Shown here piece after piece: positions 5,094-32,700 of a stretch of 64,000 nucleotides of DNA. The notes under the pieces are model-generated. The model worked only from the letters and a program-made list of their open reading frames with translations. It did not search any database and was not told the origin of the DNA. How positions within the stretch are numbered: position 1 is the first letter of the stretch; each line of letters opens with the position of its first letter. This stretch comes from an uncultured Bacteroidales bacterium (GTDB lineage: Bacteria > Bacteroidota > Bacteroidia > Bacteroidales > CAIXZF01). The DNA is taken from positions 1 to 64,000 of the forward strand of contig CAIXZF010000059.1 in assembly GCA_903923925.1 (NCBI GenBank). The letters run 5' to 3'. The position numbers and the translations under genes were made by a program.

Positions 5094-5723
5094 TTAGTGA
5101 TACGTTTTTTCGCCTGCTTCAATTTTAATAGAAAGGTCGTTCTGTTGTGGAGGCAAAGGACAGGAATACTCGTGGTTGTAAGCACAATAGGGGTTGTAGG
5201 ATTTGTTAAAATCGATCACAATTTTTTCGCCATGTGTGTTCGTCAGGTCAATGAATCTTCCGCCCCCATATGTTTCTCTTCCTGAGGTTTCATCAGAATA
5301 AGGAAGGAAAAGGTAATTTTCATAACCGGGTCGAGAAATTAGCTCAACATTCTGAAAAACTTCCAGCTTGAATTCCTTCCCGTCGATAGTGAAATATACA
5401 TTTGCATAATGCCTGTATTCAGGAAGCCTGTCGGTGGTGGTCTTCATTTTGAAAACCTCTGTTTTATTGGTGAGTTCAAAACGTGCTTTCACTCTGTATT
5501 TCAGATCGTATGGGTAGTAGGAGAGGTGCTTGAAACCCGACACTTCTGCGGCAGACAACGGGGAGCTTTCTTTCACCCTGAATTCTGTATCTTTCTGTGC
5601 CCTTTCTTTCTCAACCTGCAAACGAAAGGTGTCCGATATTACCTGTCCATGATCCTGTCCTGAACATGAACTAACTATCATTAATAAAAATAAACCTGAA
5701 AGGATGTAATTGATTTGTTTCAT
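5094..5723 (-). CDS. DUF1684 family lipoprotein
   Basis: A 209-residue protein. The N-terminal signal ends in a lipobox (VSSC, Cys at residue 20), so it is predicted to be lipid-anchored. The body matches DUF1684: the YGGGRFIDL segment, the DFNKSYNPYCAYN segment, and SCPLPP near the C-terminus. The function of DUF1684 is not established. The start codon overlaps the end of the upstream OmpA-family gene by 4 bases (ATGA type), which points to co-translation. It is the last gene of the minus-strand set that begins at 13018, so it may serve the same envelope function. Confidence 0.85.
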   Translation of the reverse strand: MKQINYILSGLFLLMIVSSCSGQDHGQVISDTFRLQVEKERAQKDTEFRVKESSPLSAAEVSGFKHLSYYPYDLKYRVKARFELTNKTEVFKMKTTTDRLPEYRHYANVYFTIDGKEFKLEVFQNVELISRPGYENYLFLPYSDETSGRETYGGGRFIDLTNTHGEKIVIDFNKSYNPYCAYNHEYSCPLPPQQNDLSIKIEAGEKTYH

Positions 5724-8700
5724 TTTTCTGCGATAATAATAAATTCTGTTCTTCTGTTCATTGCCCTGCCTTCGGGGTTATCTTCGCCATTCGACAGTTT
5801 ATTTGGTGCAATTGGTCGTGTTTTCCCATATCCTTTCGCTAAAAGTCTTCCCGCAGCAATACCTTTCTTAATGAGATAGGACTCCACCGACCTTGCACGG
5901 CGCAAAGATAATTCCATATTGTATTCATCGCTGCCTATGTTATCGGAATGTCCTGATATTTCTATACGAATCTTCGGATTCTGATTTAACAGATCCAGAA
6001 GTTTGCCTAATTCATTTGCAGATTCACTTTTCAATGCAATCTGATCATATTCAAAGAATATATTGTTGAGAATAATACTTGCAACGAATTTTTGAGGAAT
6101 AACAAGGTTTGTGTTAAGTAGATTGTTGAATGCCTGCCTGCTAATCGATTTTAGCAGAGGATCAGCGGCAAGCCTGCTTCCGGAATTGCTGATAATTTCT
6201 TCAAGAAATTTTTCCTGAAGGTTTGATATTGGAACGCCCGTTTTAATAATTGCTGAAATAATACTCTGATTCATAAGAAATATCTTTTTGAATTCATTCA
6301 GCAAGCCTGCAGAGTCCTGAATTCCTGCAGAATAGTTGTGCAATAATGTTTTTAGATGAGTGCTGACCGGCATCCCGAACAATGAAATATTTTGTCCAAT
6401 CATCTTTGTCGCAAGACGTTTATGAATCAGCTCGAGGAGTTTTGGGCTGCTGTTTCCTTTATTTTTCTCATCCACAGCACCCGATTTTCTTGCAATCTGT
6501 TCTGCTAAAGTAGACTCAATTTGTGTATATGTATTTCCGATTGATAGTAAAGCAATTATCAGATCCTTGTTATCATCAATTATTTTATCAATATCCAGCG
6601 CAATATACTCCTGGTCTTTCTCATTAAAGCTTCCATCGGCATCGTCAATGGCATCCAGTGTTGTTTCATACACGTTTACATTGAAAATGTTATTATCTGG
6701 CATGATTGCCGGTAAATTTTCTTCCAAAATTCTCTTTGTTCGTTCTGATTCTATCTGGATATCTGAGTCGCTGAAAATTTGAGGACTGCTGCAATTTTCC
6801 GGCATTAAAGATCCTCTGCTTAACATCTTTGTAATTTGACTGTAGGTAATCCCACTGCTCACCAACATTTTTATTTTATCGCTTTGCAGCGCTATATTCT
6901 TCCCGCTGACTTTCGAATTGTTGAGTACATGTATCATATTCAGGTCAAGAAAGATGTTTTCAACTGCTATGTTAGAAATCATTTTTAGCTTTTCTTCTAT
7001 AGTTGCAGGAAGGATTTCATTCCCGGATTTAATACTCTCAGTTAAATCGGTGTAAAATGATTTCTGTATTTCCGGCAGGCTCTTACCTGAAGCAAAGAGG
7101 AGTTCAAACCGAACATTATTCTCTAATGCAATTCTGTTGATTTTGTTGATAAGTGTATCTTCGGTTTCCTTCGTAATAACCGCAGCATTTTTTGAAGAAA
7201 TATCGAAATATGAGGAGGGAAGCGGAATGTCAAAAACTGGTTTATGGTAAATTTCAGGATAGATTACTGAAAGTGCCTCCCTGAGATACGAAGCAACACT
7301 TTTCGATCTTAATGCACCTTGATTCGAAATTGGAAGTCCACCTGCTTCGCAGATTTCTTTAATTAGCTGTTGCATTATTTCGGATGGAGCAGTGTTTTGT
7401 TTTAATGAATTACTGATAATGAATTTGTTGTCGATTACAATGTTGAGGAAGTTCTGATGTATGCTTTGTTCCAGTTCAGGAAGAGATTCTAATTCACCGG
7501 TAGTGTCATTTATAGCGTCTCCGGATAACTGGAGAAGGTCGATATCAAACTTGCCTTTCGAAGAATTAGGAATTGTTTGCTTGTTAGTTTTGTGCTGGTT
7601 TTCGGTTAAGTCGAGTTCTGTTGATATTCTGAAATTCTTCATTTCATTCTCAACTAAACCTGAAAGTTCTGTTTTAGCCGGTATTGCCATATTAGTGCTG
7701 TCGTCAGCAACAGTGTTAATTATTTCCTGGCAAACAAGATCAATAATATCTTCCATGTCGATACCCGCATCAAAAAGTAATACGAGCCTGTCGCGGTTTC
7801 TTTGCAGCACCTTTTCAACATTGCGTTGGACAAATATTTCTTTCCCCTTTGTGATCTTCCCGTTTGCCGGGTCTATAAGTAACTTTGCCTCCTCATCAAC
7901 AACAACTTCGAAACAATTCCCGCGCAAGGCTTTCTGAAGTTCCTGTTCGGGATACTCTGTATTCCTTATTTTGTATAAAAAGACATTCTTTAATGAACTT
8001 TCGTAACTGTCGAGCGAACTTAAATCTACATTTACTGAATGAAAGAGATATCCGGGGACACTAAATGTAATGCCATATTTCTTACCTGGTTCGAGCGAAA
8101 AACTGAATTTACCGCTGCTTGAATTTGAACTGGTGATAAATGCAGGTTTTCCGGATGATATATCGTAAACCTCTATTCGGGCGCCTACAGCCTGCAGCTG
8201 TACTGCATCTAAAACACGGCCACTCAGGAACTTCATGGCCAGGGGTTCGGTTACTTTTTCATCGGTTTTATTGAAGCTGATCATGTAGATATCCTGACCG
8301 CCAAATCCTGTTGTGCGCTCTGAAGAATAGAAGGCTGTTTTTCCATCAGCAGTTATTGTAAAGAAAACATCGTCATCAACAGTATTTACGGGATACCCAA
8401 GGTTAACAGCTTCGCTCCACTGATCGTTCTTTAAAGTGCTTTTAAAAATATCATACCCTCCAATAGAATTATGCCCTTCTGAACTGAAATACAGGGTTTT
8501 CCCATCGGGATGAATGAAAACAGATTCCTCATTGAATTTTGTATTGATTTTTGGACCCAGGTTTTCGGGATGTCCAAGACTACCGTCCATATTTACTTTT
8601 GCCACATAAATATCACCACCACCATAGCCGCCTGCTCTGTCGGAAGTGAAATAAATCCGCATTCCATCTGCCGACCAACAAGCTGAAGACTCAATTTCTT

Positions 8701-9619
8701 CACTGTTAATTACTTTAGGTAGTTTTTCCGGCCTCGACCAACGTGAACCATAGAGTTTCGATTCGTAAATGTCGCCACTTATGCCGCCGTAGTCTGTTAG
8801 TAGTGTCTGGCCGTCAACAGAAAGCGCAATAACTCCATCGTTGAGTTCTGTATTTACCGGTCTGCCAACATTAACCGGACTAGTCCATTCTCCGTTCTTT
8901 TTAATGCTAATATAGATGTCTTCGAAATATTTTTCATCAAGTTTGAGTTTTCCTCCGCCTGTGGTATTCGGGCGTCTGGATGTAAATACCAGAAGGTTGT
9001 TGTCTGCTGATATTTTGGGATTATATTCAGGATTGCTGGTATTAATTGTAGGGCCAATGTTTTGTATTTCAGCGATTATCGGATTCGAACAGATTTCGCG
9101 TGCATTTATGCTGTAATTCAAGTTTAAATTGAGTTCTTCATTGAAAAAGCTTAATTCGGCAGGCAGCATACCTGAGGTGTATTCTTTCAAAAAGCGGGTT
9201 TTGAAAATATCATAACAGATCAATGCACTGTCGAATCGTTCTGAATGATGATATGCCTGTGCGAGCAGGTACATCAGATCAGGGTTTACACCGATATCGT
9301 ATTTGAGAGCTTTGGTTAAAAAGGGGAGGGCCTTTTCTTTAAAGGCTGAATTGAGATAGCAGGCACCTATCTTGTAGTTGAGAAAAGCATTCTCTGAATT
9401 AAAATTCTGAGCAGCGAGAAAATGCGTTAAAGCTTCCTGGTCACTGCCGTCTTTGTTCTTATAGAATAAACTGTCGCCTTTATCAATTTCGGATAAGGCT
9501 GTTTCAAGTTCGTGAATCCTGTTAGGGAAATATTTTGCAGAGAAGTCAATATTTTGTCCTTTCAATTGCGGACAAGTGAAGAGAAAACCCAAAATAAGTC
9601 CGACAATTGTCCGGATCAT
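5720..9619 (-). CDS. TPR/PD40/OmpA envelope protein with six internal repeats
   Basis: A 1299-residue exported protein. Domains in order: signal peptide 1-21; TPR-like helices about 35-150; PD40/WD40-like propeller about 185-450, with repeated FTSRR, YFTSDRAGG and YFSSEG blocks; a carboxypeptidase-regulatory-like beta domain about 460-550; a long helical region about 590-1175; an OmpA C-terminal peptidoglycan-binding domain about 1180-1299 (FFEYDQ, GHSDNIG, RRARSVESYL, NRRTEF). The TPR-propeller-CRD-OmpA order is that of T9SS PorE, but PorE has no such helical insert. The insert holds six copies of a motif of the type LLxxGxxxxxI...I at about 606, 726, 835, 911, 1018 and 1116. It lies 57 bases after a T9SS cargo gene and overlaps the lipoprotein gene, suggesting one operon. 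Confidence 0.85.
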   Translation of the reverse strand: MIRTIVGLILGFLFTCPQLKGQNIDFSAKYFPNRIHELETALSEIDKGDSLFYKNKDGSDQEALTHFLAAQNFNSENAFLNYKIGACYLNSAFKEKALPFLTKALKYDIGVNPDLMYLLAQAYHHSERFDSALICYDIFKTRFLKEYTSGMLPAELSFFNEELNLNLNYSINAREICSNPIIAEIQNIGPTINTSNPEYNPKISADNNLLVFTSRRPNTTGGGKLKLDEKYFEDIYISIKKNGEWTSPVNVGRPVNTELNDGVIALSVDGQTLLTDYGGISGDIYESKLYGSRWSRPEKLPKVINSEEIESSACWSADGMRIYFTSDRAGGYGGGDIYVAKVNMDGSLGHPENLGPKINTKFNEESVFIHPDGKTLYFSSEGHNSIGGYDIFKSTLKNDQWSEAVNLGYPVNTVDDDVFFTITADGKTAFYSSERTTGFGGQDIYMISFNKTDEKVTEPLAMKFLSGRVLDAVQLQAVGARIEVYDISSGKPAFITSSNSSSGKFSFSLEPGKKYGITFSVPGYLFHSVNVDLSSLDSYESSLKNVFLYKIRNTEYPEQELQKALRGNCFEVVVDEEAKLLIDPANGKITKGKEIFVQRNVEKVLQRNRDRLVLLFDAGIDMEDIIDLVCQEIINTVADDSTNMAIPAKTELSGLVENEMKNFRISTELDLTENQHKTNKQTIPNSSKGKFDIDLLQLSGDAINDTTGELESLPELEQSIHQNFLNIVIDNKFIISNSLKQNTAPSEIMQQLIKEICEAGGLPISNQGALRSKSVASYLREALSVIYPEIYHKPVFDIPLPSSYFDISSKNAAVITKETEDTLINKINRIALENNVRFELLFASGKSLPEIQKSFYTDLTESIKSGNEILPATIEEKLKMISNIAVENIFLDLNMIHVLNNSKVSGKNIALQSDKIKMLVSSGITYSQITKMLSRGSLMPENCSSPQIFSDSDIQIESERTKRILEENLPAIMPDNNIFNVNVYETTLDAIDDADGSFNEKDQEYIALDIDKIIDDNKDLIIALLSIGNTYTQIESTLAEQIARKSGAVDEKNKGNSSPKLLELIHKRLATKMIGQNISLFGMPVSTHLKTLLHNYSAGIQDSAGLLNEFKKIFLMNQSIISAIIKTGVPISNLQEKFLEEIISNSGSRLAADPLLKSISRQAFNNLLNTNLVIPQKFVASIILNNIFFEYDQIALKSESANELGKLLDLLNQNPKIRIEISGHSDNIGSDEYNMELSLRRARSVESYLIKKGIAAGRLLAKGYGKTRPIAPNKLSNGEDNPEGRAMNRRTEFIIIAEK

Positions 9620-9676: not shown

Positions 9677-12600
9677 CTAATTCGCAAGAAAAAGTTTTCT
9701 CCTCTCGGTAACAGATTTATTCTTGCCATCAAATCTGACCACAAGATAGTATAAACCTGGCATACATGAAGAGAGGTCAACAGCAAAATTAATTGAACTC
9801 GTGTTATTTGCAAAAAAGGAATTGTGTGATACTAGTTTGCCCAATTGATCATAAATTGATGCTTCGCATTCACCCTTTGCCGGAAAGTACAATGATACCT
9901 GGGAAAAACCTGTTGTTGGATTTGGTGTTACTAACTGAATCAGATTTGTTTTAATAGTTTCATCTGATTGTATTTTTGAGAAATTATTTTGAATATCGAG
10001 TGGCATGTATAAACGAACATCAGCTATAGCATTTGCATCGTCATCGGCAAATTCAGTTTCAGAATCAATAGAAAATTGAAGTGGAAATGGCATGACTGCT
10101 GTTTGTTTTAATCTTGCCGATATCTTGAAAAGCATACCGCCGGGTCTGAAACTTCTTGCATTAACATCAAACCAACCAATTCTTATTTTATCACCAATAA
10201 TTGAATACTGCAATCCCTCAAGCTTGGAGATTATTCCTGAAATCTCAAGTTCAGTAGTATCGAAAGCCATTACCATCGACATAGCAGAGAGATTTAATTC
10301 ACGTTCTGTATAAACTGGTAGCAGTAAGCTTTTGTCAGGATTAATTTCAGAAGTTCCACTGGAAACTAATATAGGTGTAAATTCATTATTTGAATAGGGT
10401 TTTTGTCCGTTTAAAGGTGGAATATACGATCCATTTACATCGCCCGCACAAAGAGTTATGAAGCCGCAACTGACGGATTGACTGGCAACAACAACATTAA
10501 TAAAAGGTTCTTTAATCCAGTCGCCGCAAGGGAATGAATTCACCACATGAATATATCGTCTTACAATCATGTATGCATCAGCAGCATTCAGATAACCACT
10601 CAGATTCACATCACCGGCAAGCTGCCGGAACGGACTGAGGTTAGTAAGACCAATAGAAAACTGAGCTGTTAAAAGAGCATCGGTGGCATTTACGCCACCC
10701 CATTTTTTTATCGAAGAAAAACTATTTGTGTAATTTCCTGAGTTAACGCAGCGGAAGGTATATGTTCCGTCGATTTCATTCCAAACGCTATCTATTAATT
10801 GTCCGGCAGTGTTTTTCAGACATACTTTACAACTGTCAATGTTGGAGTTTAAGGTATTGTCGTAGGTTATATGTCCGAGAATTTTGGGTTTTACAATAGT
10901 TGTGATAAACTGGCTTGCACTACCAATACAGCCGCTGGAATTTAAATACTGGTAAGTAATTGAATATGTACCAGCAGCAATTGAACCGGGATTGAAAAAA
11001 CCAGCAGAAATACCGGGTCCCGAATATGTACCTCCCAGCGGATGTCCGCCTGTAAGGAATAGAGGAGCTGCATCTCGGCATATGATTGGGAAGTTTGAAA
11101 GACTTACAGTTGGATTTGGCTCAACTGTAACTAACATGGGTTTTGTTTTTGTGCAAGCAGTTGCAGAAATTGTTTCAGTAAGTTTATACGTTGTTGTTAC
11201 TGATGGATATACTATTGGGTTTGATGCCGAAGAAGTAAAGCCAGCCGGAACTGATACCCAACTGTAAACCGACCCCTGAACTGATGGACCTCCGATAGTG
11301 GTGCTATTTCCGGCACAAATGCTTTGATCGGGACCTGTATTTGCCAATGGAAGAGGATTGACGATAACTGTTACTGAATTTGATTTTGTACAGCCGGTTG
11401 AAGTAATTGTTTCGGTGAGAGTGTAAGTTGTTGTTACCATTGGAGTAACAACCGGATCTGAAACAGTTGAAGTAAAACCTGCCGGATTTGAAGTCCAGCT
11501 ATAGGTGTTCCCGGCAACAGAGGGTGCACCAATCGATGCTGATGTATTTTTACAAACAGCACTGTTATAGCCTGCTACTGCTGCTGGATAAGGCACAGCT
11601 GTAATTGTAAGACTGTTGGTAGCTACGCATCCGTTAACTAAATTTGTTTCAACCAAAGTGTAAGTGGTGTTAACAACCGGGCTCACAATTGGATTGGAAA
11701 TGGAAGAGGTAAATCCTGCAGGAACTGATGTCCAGACGTAATTAAATCCCTGAGCGGATTGTGCCCCTATTGTAACCTGGTTGCCAATACAGAGGTTTTG
11801 AGATGGTCCGGTATAGGCGGATGGTCCTGGTTGCACGTCGATGTCTGCACTGTCAATTGCAACACACATTGCAGATGAAGTTACTGTTAATATGTACAAA
11901 GTGGTGGCAAATGGAAAAACAACAGGGTTAGCCTGATTAGAGTAAAATCCAGCAGGAATAGAGCTCCATAAATATGTGTTTCCTGCAATTGGTGGTGCTC
12001 CCAGCTGTATACTGTTGCCACTGCATACTGAAGTAATTGTACCTGCAGAGGCAACAGGCATTGGATTTACATTAATTGTGACTGATGAGGAACCTGAACA
12101 TCCATTTGTAGCTGTAACAGTTTCAGTATATGTTGTTGTTTGAGTGGGAATAACTGAGGGGTTTGCTAAATTTGATGAAAATCCTGAAGGCGCAGACGAC
12201 CAATTATACGTAATTCCGGGCTGTATAACGCCACCAATATATAATTCGGTACCGGCACAAACTGAAGTATTGCCAATAGTACTTGTTTGTGGTGACTGAT
12301 TTACTATCACATTCAATGTTACGGGGGCAGTTGATGCGTTTCCGTTTGTTAGAACAAGGCTGTAATTGCCGGCAGAAGAAGTAGTTGCATTTGGGATTAC
12401 AGGATTTTGAACGTTTGAAGTGAATCCGTTAGGACCTGTCCACTGATAGGTTGCACCTGCAACAGCAGTAGAGAATAGTTGCAGGTTCTGCCCTGAACAA
12501 AGCGGACTATTTGAGCTGATTACAGGTGGAATCAAACAACTCATATTACCTGTTCCACTCGTCTGGTTTATTGTAATACCACAAGCCAGGTTCGAGAAAT

Positions 12601-13018
12601 TTGTTACCATTATAATATAATATTTGCCCTGAACTGTTGTTGGAAGATCAACAACTTCCAATGCGGTTCCCCCTGCATAACTACAATCAATTTTATTAGA
12701 ATTGGTCAGTCCGGAAGTACATCCCAGATCAACAGAGTCGAATGGGCCCCAACATACAAAATCAATATCTCTTGCAGGATTCGAGCTGATGGTAATATGA
12801 ATATCGCCGGCTATTCCAACATAAAAATAGAACCAACCTCGGTTTGGAGTTGTTGAACAGCAACTTATTGCTGCTGTATTTGGTTGGCCGGTTAAGCCTG
12901 CATAGTTAAAAGGCTGCCCGGAACAAATCTGTGTTGCAGAACTACACGATAGTCCCTGACAGAAAAGAGCGCAGGGAAAGAAAATTGTTATGACCCAAAC
13001 AATAAAATTTCTATACAT
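9677..13018 (-). CDS. Large T9SS type A cargo with Ig/PKD-like repeats
   Basis: A 1113-residue exported protein. Signal peptide about 1-21. A beta domain covers about 22-160 (PNRGWFYFYVG, DIDFVCWGPF). An Ig-like domain (about 165-240) is followed by five repeats of about 79 residues, each with a Cys near the start, an (Y/V)W(S/T/V)S..PAGF core and a TTTYTLTET-type strand, to about 635. Next come a GxYSGPG domain, a carboxypeptidase-regulatory-like segment, dockerin-like sequence (VNATDALLTAQ and GDVNLSGYLNAADAYMIVRR) and a cohesin-like beta domain. The last 80 residues are a type A sorting domain. It heads the minus-strand set that includes the 1299-residue OmpA protein. The ligand is unknown. 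A surface scaffold or adhesin is the likely role. Confidence 0.8.
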   Translation of the reverse strand: MYRNFIVWVITIFFPCALFCQGLSCSSATQICSGQPFNYAGLTGQPNTAAISCCSTTPNRGWFYFYVGIAGDIHITISSNPARDIDFVCWGPFDSVDLGCTSGLTNSNKIDCSYAGGTALEVVDLPTTVQGKYYIIMVTNFSNLACGITINQTSGTGNMSCLIPPVISSNSPLCSGQNLQLFSTAVAGATYQWTGPNGFTSNVQNPVIPNATTSSAGNYSLVLTNGNASTAPVTLNVIVNQSPQTSTIGNTSVCAGTELYIGGVIQPGITYNWSSAPSGFSSNLANPSVIPTQTTTYTETVTATNGCSGSSSVTINVNPMPVASAGTITSVCSGNSIQLGAPPIAGNTYLWSSIPAGFYSNQANPVVFPFATTLYILTVTSSAMCVAIDSADIDVQPGPSAYTGPSQNLCIGNQVTIGAQSAQGFNYVWTSVPAGFTSSISNPIVSPVVNTTYTLVETNLVNGCVATNSLTITAVPYPAAVAGYNSAVCKNTSASIGAPSVAGNTYSWTSNPAGFTSTVSDPVVTPMVTTTYTLTETITSTGCTKSNSVTVIVNPLPLANTGPDQSICAGNSTTIGGPSVQGSVYSWVSVPAGFTSSASNPIVYPSVTTTYKLTETISATACTKTKPMLVTVEPNPTVSLSNFPIICRDAAPLFLTGGHPLGGTYSGPGISAGFFNPGSIAAGTYSITYQYLNSSGCIGSASQFITTIVKPKILGHITYDNTLNSNIDSCKVCLKNTAGQLIDSVWNEIDGTYTFRCVNSGNYTNSFSSIKKWGGVNATDALLTAQFSIGLTNLSPFRQLAGDVNLSGYLNAADAYMIVRRYIHVVNSFPCGDWIKEPFINVVVASQSVSCGFITLCAGDVNGSYIPPLNGQKPYSNNEFTPILVSSGTSEINPDKSLLLPVYTERELNLSAMSMVMAFDTTELEISGIISKLEGLQYSIIGDKIRIGWFDVNARSFRPGGMLFKISARLKQTAVMPFPLQFSIDSETEFADDDANAIADVRLYMPLDIQNNFSKIQSDETIKTNLIQLVTPNPTTGFSQVSLYFPAKGECEASIYDQLGKLVSHNSFFANNTSSINFAVDLSSCMPGLYYLVVRFDGKNKSVTERRKLFLAN

Positions 13019-23343: not shown

Positions 23344-24294
23344 TTACATGTACCTTGCATTCTTATACCGTGTCATTGATGGTTTTTGTTCAATTTTAAG
23401 CAGGTAATTCAGCATAATCTCGTGGCTTCCCATACTTCCGGCCTTTTTCATTCCGGAAGTCGTCCAGTCATAAGCATAACCTATCCTGAACCCATGATAA
23501 TCAATACCAAGCATAATCATAACTGCATCCTGATTTCTGTATCCTAATCCCCCCCAGAAAGTGTTTTTGTTGATTAGTAAACAACTGAGATCAAATTGTG
23601 TTGAAATAAGTTCAGATTCTACAAATACTGAGGGCTCAATTTCCCATCTTTCATCGGATGCCAGGGTATAGCGATAAACAGAAGTGAGGAAATAATGCCT
23701 CTTTAACTTTACTGTCGATTCACCTTCCAGAATAGCTTTCGCCTCACTCAACTGGGTAGTTGATAGTGAAATGTTGAATTTTGAAGGGATAATATACAAA
23801 AACCCTGCCCCGAAATCTGTAAGCATGGTCGATTGAATTCCCTTGTTCATGAACAGCGGATCTCCTTGTTCAAGAACTTCAAATTTCGAAAAATCACGCT
23901 TCAGATTCAGAAACATCAGCTGTGCTCCAAGTGCAAATGTCCCTTTTCCAATATAGAATTTATAACAATAATCAAGGTTAACCCTCAGCTTTGAATCGAA
24001 TCCAAGCAGATCCTGCATCACCGATAATCCCATACCTCCATGCAGAAATTTTACGGGACCGTCGGTATTCACCAGGAAGCTATGCGGGTTAACGGAGTTC
24101 CCTTTACTGTCCTTGAATCCCACCCATTGCTGGCGATAGATGCCCGTGAAATTTACAGCATCATTCATCCCGGCGGCCGCAGGATTGTAAAAAACCTGGT
24201 TGAACATAAATTGGGTGAATTGCGCCTCCTGCTGAGCACTTAGCGAAATCCATCCACAAACCAGAATATATATAAGCAGTACTTTTTTCATCAT
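23344..24294 (-). CDS. PorP/SprF-family T9SS outer-membrane protein
   Basis: About 316 residues with a signal peptide (MMKKVLLIYILVCGWISLSAQ region) followed at once by the family hallmark QFTQFMFNQVFYNPAAAG. The remainder is an alternating-strand beta-barrel. In Flavobacterium, SprF is needed to secrete the type B cargo SprB, and PorP in Porphyromonas is a T9SS component. Here the gene follows a type B cargo and a PorE-like gene, which supports a cargo-specific role. The ATG at 24294 is chosen because the longer form would lack a proper signal peptide and would overlap the preceding gene. Confidence 0.88.
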   Translation of the reverse strand: MMKKVLLIYILVCGWISLSAQQEAQFTQFMFNQVFYNPAAAGMNDAVNFTGIYRQQWVGFKDSKGNSVNPHSFLVNTDGPVKFLHGGMGLSVMQDLLGFDSKLRVNLDYCYKFYIGKGTFALGAQLMFLNLKRDFSKFEVLEQGDPLFMNKGIQSTMLTDFGAGFLYIIPSKFNISLSTTQLSEAKAILEGESTVKLKRHYFLTSVYRYTLASDERWEIEPSVFVESELISTQFDLSCLLINKNTFWGGLGYRNQDAVMIMLGIDYHGFRIGYAYDWTTSGMKKAGSMGSHEIMLNYLLKIEQKPSMTRYKNARYM

Positions 24295-24301
24295 GCAAAG
24301 T

Positions 24302-26746
24302 TTAGCGACAATTATTTCGTTTATCATCAATCGGGGCTACAAAGGCATCAGGCACAAACTTTTTGGCCTGCTTGCAATATTCAATCGCCTCATTTTTTGT
24401 GGGAAAGACACCAGTAATTATTCTGTTTATCTTATCCGGACCTTCGCATACTCTCAGATTTCTGAAATTGGCTGAAAGCTCCGCTGTTATTCTTCCTGTT
24501 CCTACCTGTACAGTAAACTGAAGTGTTGCAGGAGATACAGGTTTCGGAACGTCTTTCTGTACAAGGGGTTCCGCCTTTTTAACCTCTGGCTTTGGTGTGG
24601 CAACAATCAAAGGCTTGCTTTCCTGCCGGATTTCTGCACCTACTACAGTGCTCGTGTTTACAGGAGGTTTATGTTTTTCTGCTACCTGGGGGGGCGTTTT
24701 TTGTGTCACATCTTCCATTACTGCCAGTGCAGGTTTGTAATCATCACGAAGTACCTTAAATGCCGTTCTTCGGTTAAGTTGATGTGCATTTTCCCTGTCT
24801 TCTGCATTTAAGGTCTTAATAAAACTATCATCCAGAATTGTCCCTTTTCTGAAAGTTGATGTATTTACAAGGAAATCCTTCTCCAGCGCCCTTGGCTGTC
24901 TCTTTCCAAAACCTTTGGCCACAAGCCTTCCCGGGTCAACACCTTGTAACACAAGAAAGTTGACAACAGCCTCAGCTCTTTTCTGCGACAATGCATCATT
25001 AACCTCATCGTTGTCGCGGGAATCGGTATAGGCACTGATTTCTACTACAATATTTTTGTATTCCCTGAGTGTCCTTACCAAACCAACCAGAGAATCCTGG
25101 TATTGTGAGGCAATGTCCCACTTTCCGAAGTCAAAGAATATCTCAGGCAACACAATTGGCTGTTTAGCAATGGGGATAATTTTACATTCAACTTCAAACA
25201 CCTTGTTTCTTGCCAGCCCAACTGTACTAACACTGCTTTTATACGAATAATAATTCTTCACCTGGTTGCTCAGCTCATAGGTTCGTTCTGCTTTTACAAT
25301 GGTGCTGTCGAAAACAAATTTTCCGGATCTGTCACTTTTGGCTTCTGATGTTGAACCGTCAGACCCATTAAGTTTGATGGTTGCATCTTTCACAGGCTGA
25401 TTGGTCTTTATATCTTTTATCACTCCTTTAAGTGAAAAAACAAGCGGAGGGAAGTAGTATGAATAGATGTCGTCGCCTCCCATGCCGCCACTTCTGTTGG
25501 ATGTGAAATACCCACGCGCATGGTCAGCGCTTGTTATAAACTCAAAGTCATCAGCTGAAGAGTTAATGGGTGCTCCCATGTTTTCGGGCGTCGACCATTT
25601 ACCATTACTTTTTACCGACTTAAAAATGTCATATCCTCCAAGCCCCGGATGGGTGTTTGATGAGAAATATAATATGCTGTCCATAAAAAGAACCGGGAAT
25701 TCTTCCTTTCCTGGCGTATTAATTATTTCACCAAGGTTTTCAGCCTTCCCAAAGGGCTGCGTCTTTTTCTTCCTGCTGGCTGTCCATATATCCATATCAC
25801 CCATTCCACCCGCCATGTTGGCCACAAAATAAATATTCAACTCATCGGAGCTGATACTTGGATGAATTACATCATACTCTGATGAAGCCAGGGAAAGAAG
25901 CTCAGCCACCGACCAGCTGTTTCCTTTTGAATCTGAATACCAGATCTGGCATTTTGATTCCTTTTTCTTTTCATACCCGCAACGTGTAAAATACAAGGTG
26001 TTAAACCTGCTGTCGAATGCTCCGGGGCCCTCATTTGCCTGAGTGTTGATGATGTTCTGAGATTCCAGTAAAACAGGAACCTCCCAATCTCCTCCTTTAG
26101 GCTTCTTTTTAGCGATAAAAATATCCGTGAACGACTGCCCTGTCCAGTTGTCTGTAAGGTTTCCCGTTGTTCCTGTTCTGTTCGACGAAAAGATCAATGC
26201 ATTATACTTATTGTTTGCAAATGATGCTGCCCAGTCATCTTTTGAAGTATTAAGCTTCTTTTCGTTGATAACCTCATAGCGTGTGGGATTACTAAGCCAG
26301 GTTTCAGCCATTTCGCAGCTTTTAATTCCGTTTTCCCCCCGGATATCGTCGGGTTTGGCAGTTTTATATGCCTTATATTGCTGTAGTGCTTCAACATATT
26401 TCTGGTTAATCCTCAATGCATCTGCATAATAAAGTAAGGTCAATGCTTCGGTTTTCTGGTAGTTTGCTTTAACCAACTTCCCGAACTGCGCTTCTGCTTT
26501 CTTGTTATTGTTGATATTGCGGTAACATTCCCCAATTCTGAATAATATCCTTTGCTGCTCAACCTTATTCTGCTTTATCTTATCATAGGCTTTTTCATAT
26601 TTACTGATGGCAGAAGTGAACTGGTAATCAGAAAAAGCCTGGTCCGCTTCCGCAGAATAGTTCCGCTGAGCCTCAACGGATACTGATATCAACAGTAATA
26701 ATAAACCTAGTATATATAGCCTGCTCATTTCTCTTTTCCTTTTCAT
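24302..26746 (-). CDS. PorE-like TPR/PD40/OmpA protein with SPOR tail
   Basis: An 814-residue exported protein. Signal peptide about 1-26; TPR helices about 28-140; PD40 propeller about 170-415 (FSSNRTG, YFTSNRSGGMGGDD); carboxypeptidase-regulatory-like domain about 430-515; OmpA peptidoglycan-binding domain about 520-690 (EIFFDFGKWD, YTDSRDNDEVN, KRAEAVVNFL, NRRTAF); Pro/Lys-rich linker; SPOR-like domain about 745-812 (FTVQVGTG, GVFPTKNEA). The order up to OmpA is that of PorE, which tethers T9SS parts to peptidoglycan. The added SPOR domain is known for binding denuded glycan at division sites. It starts 1 base after the giant cargo gene and is followed 8 bases later by the SprF-like gene. 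Confidence 0.87.
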   Translation of the reverse strand: MKRKREMSRLYILGLLLLLISVSVEAQRNYSAEADQAFSDYQFTSAISKYEKAYDKIKQNKVEQQRILFRIGECYRNINNNKKAEAQFGKLVKANYQKTEALTLLYYADALRINQKYVEALQQYKAYKTAKPDDIRGENGIKSCEMAETWLSNPTRYEVINEKKLNTSKDDWAASFANNKYNALIFSSNRTGTTGNLTDNWTGQSFTDIFIAKKKPKGGDWEVPVLLESQNIINTQANEGPGAFDSRFNTLYFTRCGYEKKKESKCQIWYSDSKGNSWSVAELLSLASSEYDVIHPSISSDELNIYFVANMAGGMGDMDIWTASRKKKTQPFGKAENLGEIINTPGKEEFPVLFMDSILYFSSNTHPGLGGYDIFKSVKSNGKWSTPENMGAPINSSADDFEFITSADHARGYFTSNRSGGMGGDDIYSYYFPPLVFSLKGVIKDIKTNQPVKDATIKLNGSDGSTSEAKSDRSGKFVFDSTIVKAERTYELSNQVKNYYSYKSSVSTVGLARNKVFEVECKIIPIAKQPIVLPEIFFDFGKWDIASQYQDSLVGLVRTLREYKNIVVEISAYTDSRDNDEVNDALSQKRAEAVVNFLVLQGVDPGRLVAKGFGKRQPRALEKDFLVNTSTFRKGTILDDSFIKTLNAEDRENAHQLNRRTAFKVLRDDYKPALAVMEDVTQKTPPQVAEKHKPPVNTSTVVGAEIRQESKPLIVATPKPEVKKAEPLVQKDVPKPVSPATLQFTVQVGTGRITAELSANFRNLRVCEGPDKINRIITGVFPTKNEAIEYCKQAKKFVPDAFVAPIDDKRNNCR

Positions 26747-26747
26747 A

Positions 26748-29700
26748 CTACCTGACCAATGTTACGGATCCCTGATCTGTTAGTTCTTTGCCATCAAGAC
26801 CTTGTGCCTTCAGAATATAGTAATATACCCCGTCAGGCGCCTGCTGACCACTGAGATTCCCATCCCAAAACCCATCTATTGTATTGAATTCAAATATCTT
26901 CTTTCCCCAGCGATCCATAATAATTACATCCAGTTCCGATAAACTCACCGATTCAACACGGAAAACATCATTGTAACCATCATTATTCGGCGAAAAAGCA
27001 TTGGGTACTTTTATTTTTGAAGGACCGTCGAGGATTATCCTGACACTCACAGTATCAGTGCAATTGTCGGGGAGGCCGCTGTTAATCGTAAGCAGCACTA
27101 TATAGATACCGGCATCATTGTAATGTGCAAAAGGCGCTGGAGATGTGGAATTACTTCCATTCCCAAAATCCCAGGCATAGGTGGTGGCGCCATATCCGCT
27201 GAAGGTAAAACCAATGTCAACCGGGGCATAACCAATAGTATCGCTTGCCGTGAAAGCAGCATGTATACTTGTATTCGTTCCCACTACAGATGTGTCGGTA
27301 GATATACTGCATCCGTGCAAATCGGTTATCGTGGCAAAATAACTCCCTGTACACAATTGTTTCGCTATAGAATCGCTTTGTACTGGTATTGTATTCCAGC
27401 TGTAAGAATACGGCCTGCTTCCACCGCTCGGAGCCAGCTGCACGCTCCCGCTGCAACTGCCCTCGCAGCCTTCATTCTGGATAACAGTCTGAAACTGAAT
27501 CATCGCAGGCTCAGTCAACAATATACATATTGACGTATCACAACTATTGCTGTCGGTAACAGTAATGCAATAGTTGCCCGGACCCATATTCTGAATTGTA
27601 GGCAAGGTGATTGCAGGTGTTGTATTCCATAAATACTGGTAAGGAGGCGTTGCTCCTCCGGCAATTACTGTAGCGTGTCCATTTGCCATACCATTACAGC
27701 TTATGTTGCCCTGGTTGTTAATTAAGAGTGTGAATTCCGGAGGTTGCGCAATAACAATACTGTCGATAGTAAGGCATTGAAAACTATTCGATACGCTTAC
27801 ATAGTATTGCCCGGCACTTAAACCACTTGCTGTTGGAGTATTCTGTGCCGGTACACTGCTCCAGGCAAAGGTGAAAGGTGGTGTTCCGCTTACTGTGGCA
27901 GTTGCCGTGCCCGATAAATCTTCATGACATAACAAATCTGTAGCTGTAATTGTAACACCTGGATAACTGAATGAATAAACTTCAAAACTATCAATATGAA
28001 TACATCCGTTTGCATCTGATAGTGTAAGGGTGTAAATTCCGGGAATCAGATTGAATATTGAATCTGAAGTTGCAGTTGTATTCCATAAATATGTATAAGG
28101 AAGTGTACCCCCTGAATACTGAACTTTTATAAACCCATTCGCTGCTGCAGCACAACTGTTCTGGATGTTCGAATAGATAAGAGCAATAGAATCGGATTCT
28201 GTAATTACAACAGAAGTGTCTGAAATACATCCGTTTAAATCGCTAACTGTTACTGAATACAAACCGGAAGGCTCCTGGAAGATGCTGTCGTTAACCGAAG
28301 TGGTATTCCATAAATATGTGTAAGGCCCGGGGGTATTCGCGGCAGTTACCCAGGCCATACCTGTGTTGCTGCCATAACAGTTAATAAGAGTTGTTCCTGC
28401 CGAAAGAGCCGGCAATGCATTAACCGGAACAGCAACATTTAAGGTATCTGTGCAGCCATTTTGTGCTGTAACAACTAAACTAACAGCGAAATTGCCGGAA
28501 CTGCCGAATATATGAGGAGCATTTATGCTGTTGCTTTGTAAGCCATCTCCATAATTCCATAAATATGTTAAGGGTTCTGATGTGGGAATAGTACTGCTAT
28601 TCTGGAATAATGTTGGGAAACCCTGGCATACAGTATCTGCTGTAAATACTGCAACTGGCGGAATATAAATGCTTAATACAACCGAAGTGTCGTTATAGCA
28701 ACCAATGTTCGAATAGGCAGTCAGTTGAACTGTATAGGTTCCGGCGGAAGTATATAAATGAACTGGTGTGGCAAGTACCGATGAGTCCCCGTCGCCAAAA
28801 TGCCAGGTTTGTGATGAAACATAATAGGGCGGAGGCATTTGCGAACTCAGGCTGAATTGTGTTGACTGCCCCACACAGGCCATGGCAGGATTGAAATTCA
28901 TTACTGGCGCAGGATATGAATATCGTGTAACGGTAATTGTATCGTTCCCGGCATTATCATCGTAGGTTTGAATAATCCAGCACTTAAGTATATAGGTTCC
29001 CATGGCCGAAAAATCAAAGGGATGCTTGAACGTATATAGCAGATCGTTATACTGATAGCCAGGTATAGTGTCAGTATATACTGTGCCATTGTTCACTGAA
29101 TATGCAACTTTCAGATCCAGGAACGGAACATCGCCGAATTGCCTGATCCAAATTGTTATGCTGTCGCCTGGCCCCATATTGCAGTGGTTGTCGGGTTGTG
29201 TAATCTGGGTTATTCCAAAGTCAACCATAAATTCATCAGCGCCAATATCCGGTGCTACATTGTTACGGATCTGGTTGTCGATATCATTTGTTATTCCTGA
29301 TAGCGGTATTCCTGCACCATTAAGCTGACGCTGATAAGGCCTTAACTCTGTTGGAGCAGCAAAAAACGGATTCAGATTTTTTGAATTTGCATCACCACTT
29401 ACTACCGTTGCCCACTGATTCAGAATGCCGTAATTTGTTCCGTTATAGTTTCCAAATATAGTGCCACTGCTGTAGTAGTTGTTGAAATCCCAGAGTGAAG
29501 TATTCGTCGGACAAGTTACATATGCAGCATATCCTCCTGCTGTATTGGCGAAAATATTATTCTTGATCACATTCGTATTGCAGCTCAACAACTCAATAGC
29601 CCTGCCGTTAACAAGGTCGATGCTCTGAATGTGAATACTGTTGAAGGTAATTTTATTTCCTGAAGAACTCAGAATTGAAATTCCTTTGGCTGTGGAATAT

Positions 29701-32700
29701 CCTTTTAAATGTATAAAATTATTGTAGATCTCATTATTACTGCTGCTTATTGAAATGCCTGTCCCGTTCTCAATATTGTAAAGCCTGTTTGAATAAACCT
29801 TCAAACTGCCTGTTTCAATTGAAATCCCTATACCTTTTACATCTTTAATAATAGTATGATGTATGGATATGTCGTTGCCTGTCATTATGTTCCTGATGCC
29901 TTTGGAGCCACCTGAAAGGGTATCATTAAAAATTTTAACGACATTGTTCACCCCACTGAGAAGAATTCCGTTAGTATTAATGGCTGTAAGCGTATTTGTA
30001 AGTGTACTATTGCTGACTTTAGCAATATATCCGTCCTGAACCTGCACATTCGCAATTGTTTGAGAAGTGTTGGTATTGCCTGTAATACTAAGGATGTTGT
30101 TATTGCATACGAGGTTCGTATCCTTGCTTGAATTAATGCAGGTCCCGCTTCCACTTATATAAACCGACACTGTATTGTCACTGATATCAGTATTTTTAGT
30201 TTTGTTCAATACTATACCATGCGGATAGTTTGCTTTAACATATATTGAATTGTTGTGGATCACCGCTCCACTCGTATTCAATAAAGAAATACCCGGTTCT
30301 GCTGCAGAACCGTATGTATAGATATCGGAAAGCTTGTTCTTTTCAATAAGGATCCCGCTGTTGAACTTAGCTGAGGGCTGACCGATTTCGATGGAACTCA
30401 GTGGCAGATTATTGCCTGTTATAGTAATAATGGTATCATAGGATGTGGATGGACTGTACATATCGCCCAGAATATTCCCTTCGAAGGTGAGGTTATGGGA
30501 ATTGTTCTGAAATACAATATTCATAGCGCCATTGACCCGTTTAATTCCCATATGCCTGAAGAACATATAGTCTGTGCCATTTAATATAATGGTGTAATCG
30601 TAAGCGCTGTTTGTTAAAATGTATTGTAAAAGTACCTGGCTACTGTCGCCGCTTTGCGATTCAAAGGTGATGGTATTTAGCTGTGAATTTCCTGCTACCT
30701 CATTTATTATTACATGCTCATTATATGTTCCATTCCTGATTTTGAATACTACTGCACATGAAATTCCAACGGTATTAAGGGCATATGCAGCATCTGTAAA
30801 AGTCATAAAATCGGGGTTAACTCCACCAATGGTATACACACCGCATAAGGGCTGATAAATCTGGCTTTGTGAGGTGTCGTTTATGAAGTCGCAGTCAGCA
30901 ACCGAGTTTGGTGAATTGGTCCAGGCCCTGATTTTGTTGTTGATGCTTGTAAAATTATACTGTCCGGCATCTACTTCAGTAGAAAGTCCGGGAGGCAGAC
31001 TTCCTGCAAAAGCGTAAGGCGCCTGCACATTGCCGTTAACGGAATAGTAAATAAGAACGTTGCTTAGTGTAGTATTTCCATGATTTCTCAACATTAGCTT
31101 AATGCTTTGATTGCCTGTTCCAACCGGGCTTGTTGGTGCAGTAATGGCTTCAATTCCCGCATCTGTAATGCATGGACTTATTTCTTTTGCTCCGATATCA
31201 GGAGTAGTGGCATTCCGGAATGTCCCGTCAATATCAGTTGAAATTCCGGCAATAGGAAGTCCTGCGTTATTTATGGAAATATGATTTGGAATTAAAACTG
31301 TATCATTAGTAAAATAGGGTAGTACTGCAATTGAATGCAGATCTCCATTGCTTATTGCCTGCCAGTCGGCTAGTCCCGGATAATTTACAGAGCCTGTATA
31401 TCCTGTTTTATTACCCGAACTGTATAGGTCGTTGTAATCGGATGTAAAACTGCCAGCGCTTACTGTAGAATAAAATGAATATCCCCCGGCAGCATTGTTG
31501 AATATATTGTTCTCAATTATACTTCCGGTCCCGCCTGATATAGAAATGCATTTTGCGTTCATGCCGTCAGGCGATGTTATGTTAACCGAATTAAATACAA
31601 TAGAATTGTTAGTACTCCCGCTAATAACTGAAATGCCTGTAGGATCAGCATTACATGCCTGTATATAGTTGTTGGCAATTTTGCTATTGCTTACTTTTAC
31701 CTGAATACTCAATCCCCCATTGTTGTTAAATATTCTGTTCGACGTACAGCTTATTGCACTTCCCTTAAGATCAATAGCGTTTACATCAGCTCTTCTTATG
31801 GTATTATCATAAATACTCACATTCGACGTATTTGCCGCCAGGCTGATCCCATAGGCAACTCTGGATATCGAATTATTCCCTATCAGTATCGATGAGCAAG
31901 TGCCACTCAAACCAATTCCATAACAACTGTTAAGCTGGTTAGGATAGGATATTGCGTTTTTTCTTACCCGGATATCAAAGCTGTTGTTAATATCAATTGC
32001 CTTTCCAGAGCCGGAAGTGCTGTTATAGGTGCTTGCAATCCGATTAGAATCAATTTCAACAGCTTTTGAATTAAGAAGATAGATCGAGATTAAACCGGAG
32101 GATTGTTTTTGAATAGTATTATTTACGACGCTCCCATAGCTGCAAGCTGTAAGATTTATAACATTGTAATATGAGAATGCAGTATTGCGCCTGATGCTGA
32201 ATCCTTTGGTTTTGTCGAGTACAACAGGAGTGCCGCAGTTGGTGCTGCAGAGTTGAAAGGTATTATTTTCAATTACAATTTTACTTGTTTGAACTGTATC
32301 GGGTTGAGCAATTGAAATAAACTGCCCTGCAATAAAATTGTTGTTTTTTATGGTGAGAACACTGTCGTAGGTTAGGTTTCCCTTGCTTATTCCTGCCAGA
32401 ATATTGTTCAGAAATTGAATATGATGCGATTGATTCTGAATAATGATGTTTGTTCCTATTGTACGTTTTATGCCAAGTTTACGGAAGGTAAGGTAATCTG
32501 TTCCTGAAATGATCAGGTTGTAATTGTTTATTAAATCCGTGACATTGTAATTCAATACGGCAAGGCTGCTGTCGCCGCTTTCGGATTCAAACGTAATTGT
32601 GTTAACTGAAGAATTCCCGGCAACTTCATTGAGAATTATATGTTCGTTGTAAGTGCCATTCCGAACCCTGAAAGTAACGGGACAGGTTATTCCCACAGTA

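Follow-up and report, generated by a model that had tools for sequence, protein, structure and literature searches.

The described proteins closest to the one analysed here are PorE (PG1058) of Porphyromonas gingivalis and CHU_0125 of Cytophaga hutchinsonii. According to its published description, PorE contacts peptidoglycan via residues whose spacing is matched by the OmpA domain of the protein described below (PMC7192894), and another paper mentions, without detail, PG1058/PorE homologues whose carboxypeptidase-regulatory-like domain (CRD) regions are longer through insertions (PMC5053529). Deletion of CHU_0125, a published and viable mutation, impairs outer-membrane integrity, as stated in its report (PMC5891637).

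The window, i.e., the whole 64,000-nucleotide stretch of DNA that was analysed, which comes from the genome of an uncultured Bacteroidales bacterium, contains a gene whose product is best explained, judging by its sequence, as a PorE/CHU_0125-type protein that is exported to the periplasm and binds peptidoglycan (Table 1). The open reading frame, strand and coordinates given for it in the preliminary description are all correct. The order TPR, PD40, CRD, OmpA_C was found with Pfam, with PD40 and OmpA scoring above their cut-offs (for PF00691, 78.7 bits against 27.2) and TPR and CRD below theirs. In the OmpA domain D1226, Y1233, N1234 and R1241 are all present (Asp, then Tyr at +7, Asn at +8 and Arg at +15); this is the spacing seen in PorE, and the peptidoglycan site is intact. 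The two best NCBIfam models are those of CHU_0125 (312 bits, cut-off 620) and PorE (280 bits, cut-off 600), and because both scores lie below the cut-offs we call the protein PorE-like rather than PorE or CHU_0125 proper; three relatives without the array likewise fall below the CHU_0125 cut-off, at 330–346 bits. The signal peptides of relatives, compared by eye, mostly end in Q.

Table 1. Features of the PorE-like gene, its insert and the adjoining genes (nucleotide positions are those of the window).
Feature	Residues	Position	Strand	Basis
Upstream gene, 1113 aa, T9SS type A sorting domain, 57 nt from the open reading frame		9677..13018	(-)	
Gene, 1299-aa PorE/CHU_0125-like protein		5720..9619	(-)	NCBIfam CHU_0125_OmpA 6e-93, T9SS_PorE 3e-83, both below cut-off
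Signal peptide, KGQ end followed by N, no canonical lipobox	1-22	9554..9619	(-)	By eye and comparison with relatives
TPR region	~58-137	9209..9448	(-)	Pfam TPR matches, all below cut-off
PD40 beta-propeller, approximate limits, best stretch 354-392	~190-450	8270..9052	(-)	PF07676, 1.9e-30, 4 stretches
CRD	465-532	8024..8227	(-)	PF13620, 2.5e-4, below cut-off
Insert, 628 aa	549-1176	6092..7975	(-)	No family above cut-off; CRD-OmpA junction placement from relatives
Unit 1, followed by a 28-residue linker	569-660	7640..7915	(-)	Self-match cores, alignment, leave-one-out profile
Unit 2	689-790	7250..7555	(-)	Self-match cores, alignment, leave-one-out profile
Unit 3	794-888	6956..7240	(-)	Self-match cores, alignment, leave-one-out profile
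Unit 4, start shortened, weakest copy	889-977	6689..6955	(-)	Self-match cores, alignment, leave-one-out profile
Unit 5, five helices modelled	978-1077	6389..6688	(-)	AlphaFold2, leave-one-out profile
Unit 6, five helices likewise in two-unit model	1078-1176	6092..6388	(-)	AlphaFold2, leave-one-out profile
OmpA_C-like peptidoglycan-binding domain	1177-1299	5723..6091	(-)	PF00691, 4.4e-22
Downstream gene, 209 aa, DUF1684, 4-nt overlap with the end of the open reading frame		5094..5723	(-)	

The insert separates the CRD from the OmpA domain, as placed in the preliminary description, although its length is 628 residues (549–1176) and not about 580. The claim that it holds a six-fold repeat is borne out: six gapless 34-residue cores begin at residues 600, 723, 826, 904, 1009 and 1109 (previously put at about 606, 726, 835, 911, 1018 and 1116), with core-to-core spacings of 123, 103, 78, 105 and 100 residues, and the summed score of the ten highest-scoring ungapped self-matches of 34 aa is 366, whereas 60 shuffles gave 246 ± 19 (maximum 306). 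A unit is some 90–120 aa long, or 89–102 residues as aligned. When a profile was built from five units, the one left out scored above 2000 of 2000 natural 100-aa decoy pieces, and this held for every unit, the margin of unit 4 over natural decoys being narrow (9.1 against 9.0); E-values of the six units against their own profile are circular. Per 1000 shuffles of the left-out unit, its score was reached by none for units 1, 3, 5 and 6, by one for unit 2 and by four for unit 4, making units 2 and 4 the weakest in this test. Unit 4 is without most of the front part that is common to units 1, 2, 3, 5 and 6, which has an invariant Phe and hydrophobic positions. Identity to unit 5 is 15–25% across the other units, and the turn glycine, in the preliminary description a Gly or similar residue in every copy, is present in five and missing from the sixth, with the Asn that precedes it likewise found in five of the six. 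The six units share common descent, as shown by computation on the protein sequences. At the DNA level, direct repeats within the gene occur only as two copies of 12–30 nt, which suggests that the duplications are old.

No database family was found to account for the repeat: nothing in Pfam or NCBIfam rises above cut-off across the insert, and no known non-repeat domain spanning the whole of it was found with the profiles of either collection. The only Pfam match over residues 549–1176 is DUF3969 at 595–653 (14.9 bits against 25, E 0.028), which is also the best match when single units are compared with Pfam (E 0.0019, in one of the six), where none exceeds the gathering score. With the insert as query, the own genome gave only the self-match, 59 genomes of relatives gave nothing credible (best other E 0.055), and neither did 395 genomes of the class (best other 7e-4, in a frame with a stop); the best match among plasmid records was 0.1, and there was none among assembled genome contigs. 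The six-unit profile had a match at E ≤ 0.5 in 140 of 393 genomes of the order, the best outside the own genome being 8e-4, and since E-values were calculated per genome, 140 is by our own arithmetic about what chance would produce; among 395 genomes of the phylum one outside match was obtained (1e-3, in a frame with stops). All four of these genome sets include the own genome and they partly overlap. Five profile-match loci were inspected by eye, and we take them to be two CheR-type proteins, one helicase-like, one small lipoprotein-like and one TPR protein.

With the whole protein as query, four relatives were found on genome contigs, in frames of 451–737 aa (one of them ended by the contig end) into which the array does not fit, and no relative was found on viral contigs. 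The family sample consists of two genomes, the own one included, and the insert was not found in the other (best E 0.055), so that its orphan status partly reflects sampling: the insert may be young in its distribution or merely unsampled. Orthologues with more or fewer units were not found in the genomes sampled, and no report of such an array turned up among the open-licence papers searched.

The helical nature of the units, suggested in the preliminary description, agrees with structure prediction, which is all helical. The AlphaFold2 model of unit 5, for which the alignment consisted of the six units alone, has helices at 8–13, 23–39, 41–49, 54–68 and 82–97 (mean pLDDT 83.5, pTM 0.75). The model of units 5 and 6 together has five helices per unit, with pLDDT 75.4, pTM 0.51 and values below 50 for residues 99–105 between the units; its alignment had three rows and shares sequences with the unit 5 run, so the two runs are not independent. 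The unit is therefore predicted to be a five-helix fold, the two modelled units being joined by a linker of low confidence, and given a pTM of 0.51 and three alignment rows the arrangement of the units relative to each other is not established. Foldseek returned no PDB match with E < 1 (best 3.7 for the unit, 1.2 for the pair) and none of weight among viral models for the unit (best E 2.9). With VIA-align the best Z for the unit was 3.4 among 47 chains, and the pair matched 8x61_D (Z 6.1, rmsd 3.3, 96 residues aligned, among 997 chains); according to the note of the tool, values of this size are low and common for helical bundles. A sequence profile search of the PDB gave no convincing solved structure, the best match being to a Cas9 (E 0.038). 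A missing fold match in the PDB does not prove that a fold is new.

The insertion is a clean one: '..VFLYKIR' lies on one side and 'KFVASIILNNIFFEYD' on the other, and in close relatives a short join stands at this place. In 48 open reading frame rows of relatives (50 minus two of the window protein, with some genes represented by two loci) the distance between the CRD end and the next OmpA match is 19–29 residues in 36, 49–53 in 3 and 117–540 in 9, against 646 in the window protein; the shares of long gaps are biased upward, since L049–L067 were chosen mostly for their long frames. The gap of 117 in L052 ends at a weak OmpA-like copy and is 215 to the true OmpA, while L055, one of the three with 49–53, has 296 under a stricter measure. 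A tree built from 60 rows, 58 of them distinct, places the window protein in a clade of 24 with support 99/93, in which the gap is 19–22 in 22 of the 23 other rows, the remaining one having no OmpA to measure. Eight of the nine long-gap rows fall in another group with weaker support (89/90), and the ninth, L056, is elsewhere. Weak OmpA-like copies (best domain E each 6.5e-11 to 0.018) occupy the gap in L049, L050, L052, L053, L054, L059 and L063; by eye, several of these have no recognisable peptidoglycan motif. The earlier statement that known PorE-type proteins lack the insert thus stands for this particular insert in the relatives seen, but elsewhere the junction carries other inserts.

With the array in the window protein and OmpA-like material in another group, the junction has been lengthened more than once and with different material, as would be expected under selection for length. 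The protein of the own genome encoded on contig C113 pairs with one from the sister genome (support 100/99), which makes the window protein look like an extra paralogue; five other sister-genome matches, which lie outside the tree, may include an array-less orthologue. Two further proteins were noted during these comparisons: an 887-aa PorE-like frame (L055 from base 1225, G028:C64) in which, by eye, two tandem copies of a Gly/Trp-containing repeat lie between propeller and OmpA, and a same-genome PD40 paralogue (L060 from base 5955, G000:C112) with a 1064-aa frame, in which BLAST gave no OmpA match and a long stretch is rich in K/D/S/E and resembles a coiled coil.

We give about even chances to a reading in which the array acts as an extender that links the scaffold head to the grip on peptidoglycan. 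The TPR/propeller/CRD head would scaffold outer-membrane machinery, as is thought for this type of protein, the OmpA domain would grip peptidoglycan, and six tandem five-helix domains would separate the two, so that the head could stand at a greater distance from the peptidoglycan or be held by a longer, more compliant tether. In raw, uncontrolled counts, 23 of the 86 columns compared have a hydrophobic residue in every unit or in every unit except one, and identity in at least four units is seen in eight hydrophobic columns, two Gly columns and three polar ones, with two of the three polar ones outside the modelled helices. Conservation that is mostly hydrophobic points to a conserved core rather than a ligand site and so favours a spacer. 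It also bears on the main rival, multivalent binding, in which every unit would be a docking site for a partner in the periplasm or outer membrane, for example T9SS machinery or cargo, and which we consider somewhat unlikely: protein binding is common among helical repeats, T9SS type A sorting domains abound in the genome, and the product of the upstream gene has one, but few polar positions are conserved between units, and a neighbouring sorting domain is weak evidence where a 4.6-Mb genome has so many (at least 150: of 300 candidates 150 were scored, and all 150 matched TIGR04183). The surfaces of the units could nevertheless each bind a different partner, which between-unit conservation would not reveal. 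Improbable, in our view, is drift, i.e., a repeat expansion tolerated in a redundant paralogue and having no role of its own; the many other PD40/OmpA relatives in the genome (26 matches, several of them places in one protein) and the failure to find the insert in the only other family genome would fit it, whereas units at 15–25% identity still retain core, turn and reading frame, and the insert and the N-terminal part are much alike in G+C content by codon position.

Two other explanations concern the origin of the units. Their kinship with a helical-looking repeat of about 67 aa in the PD40 protein L057, of which they would be a far-diverged version, is very unlikely: the short motif is similar, a match to that repeat is present in 16 of 295 order genomes (source included), and the hhalign score of 12.2 is higher than the 95th percentile, 11.3, obtained from 100 column shuffles, but the match covers 16 columns with a probability of 0.78% and stays below the shuffle maximum (13.2), and at least 12 of the 217 control pieces score higher than the L057 region (13.8). 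A relationship of this repeat to the units is not supported. As an observation of its own, the repeat (L057:3188-4012, G007:C126, together with L092–L114) is found in frames of 859–1567 aa, and over its copy in L057 Pfam gives only sub-threshold matches (RPN13_C, 0.0024). Still less credible, to the point of being nearly negligible, are units that descend from degenerate OmpA domains, as in the group with weak copies at the same junction; besides those copies, there is a loose likeness of pattern (Asn, hydrophobic stretch, Gly), and MAFFT puts units 1–3 onto OmpA in a mixed alignment, a register which we take to be an artefact of mixing. Hhalign probabilities of 0.35% with 49 true OmpA rows, 0.19% with 11 weak rows and 0.37% with both speak against such descent, as do the single match of the OmpA profile in the window protein and the all-helical model predicted for the unit.

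The distances separating the gene from its neighbours (Table 1) make co-transcription of the three likely. Elsewhere in the window, 23344-35633 on the minus strand holds an operon-like set with an 814-aa PD40-OmpA protein, presumably a PorP/SprF-like protein, and a 2961-aa protein whose tail we take to be like type B sorting domains.

A more far-reaching reading, which we hold to be less likely than not, is that the units represent a new family of five-helix repeats of about 100 residues, lacking sequence relatives and a matching solved fold and serving as a modular ruler from outer-membrane scaffold to peptidoglycan, which, together with the OmpA-like inserts, would mark the CRD-OmpA junction of PorE-type proteins as a site of length tuning in Bacteroidota envelopes. 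The place of lengthening is less new, as CRD-region insertions are already in print, and this leaves the novelty of the repeat unaffected. What determines the spacing of outer-membrane machines from the wall in Bacteroidota is, in our judgement, little known, and the array-bearing protein is a ready-made test, since its units can be removed singly with distance or secretion as the readout. The unit itself is a candidate new small helical domain.

Compared with known systems, the window protein shares with PorE the order TPR, five-bladed propeller, CRD and OmpA_C and the spacing of the peptidoglycan contacts (PMC7192894). In PorE, a lipoprotein, the CRD extends to residue 527 and OmpA starts at 534, whereas the window protein has no canonical lipobox by eye and carries the 628-residue array between the two domains. 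CHU_0125, whose NCBIfam model is the best match (6.1e-93), likewise has TPR, PD40 and OmpA, but is 656 aa long against 1299 aa here, and the window protein reaches 312 of the 620 bits required. The seven relatives with weak OmpA-like copies resemble it in having a long gap at the CRD-OmpA junction and differ in the OmpA-like nature of the gap material and in belonging to the other tree group (89/90). Lpp+21 of Escherichia coli, an engineered coiled-coil lipoprotein having no kinship with the array, is comparable only in the way it works, as a longer link between outer membrane and peptidoglycan (PMC8824477).
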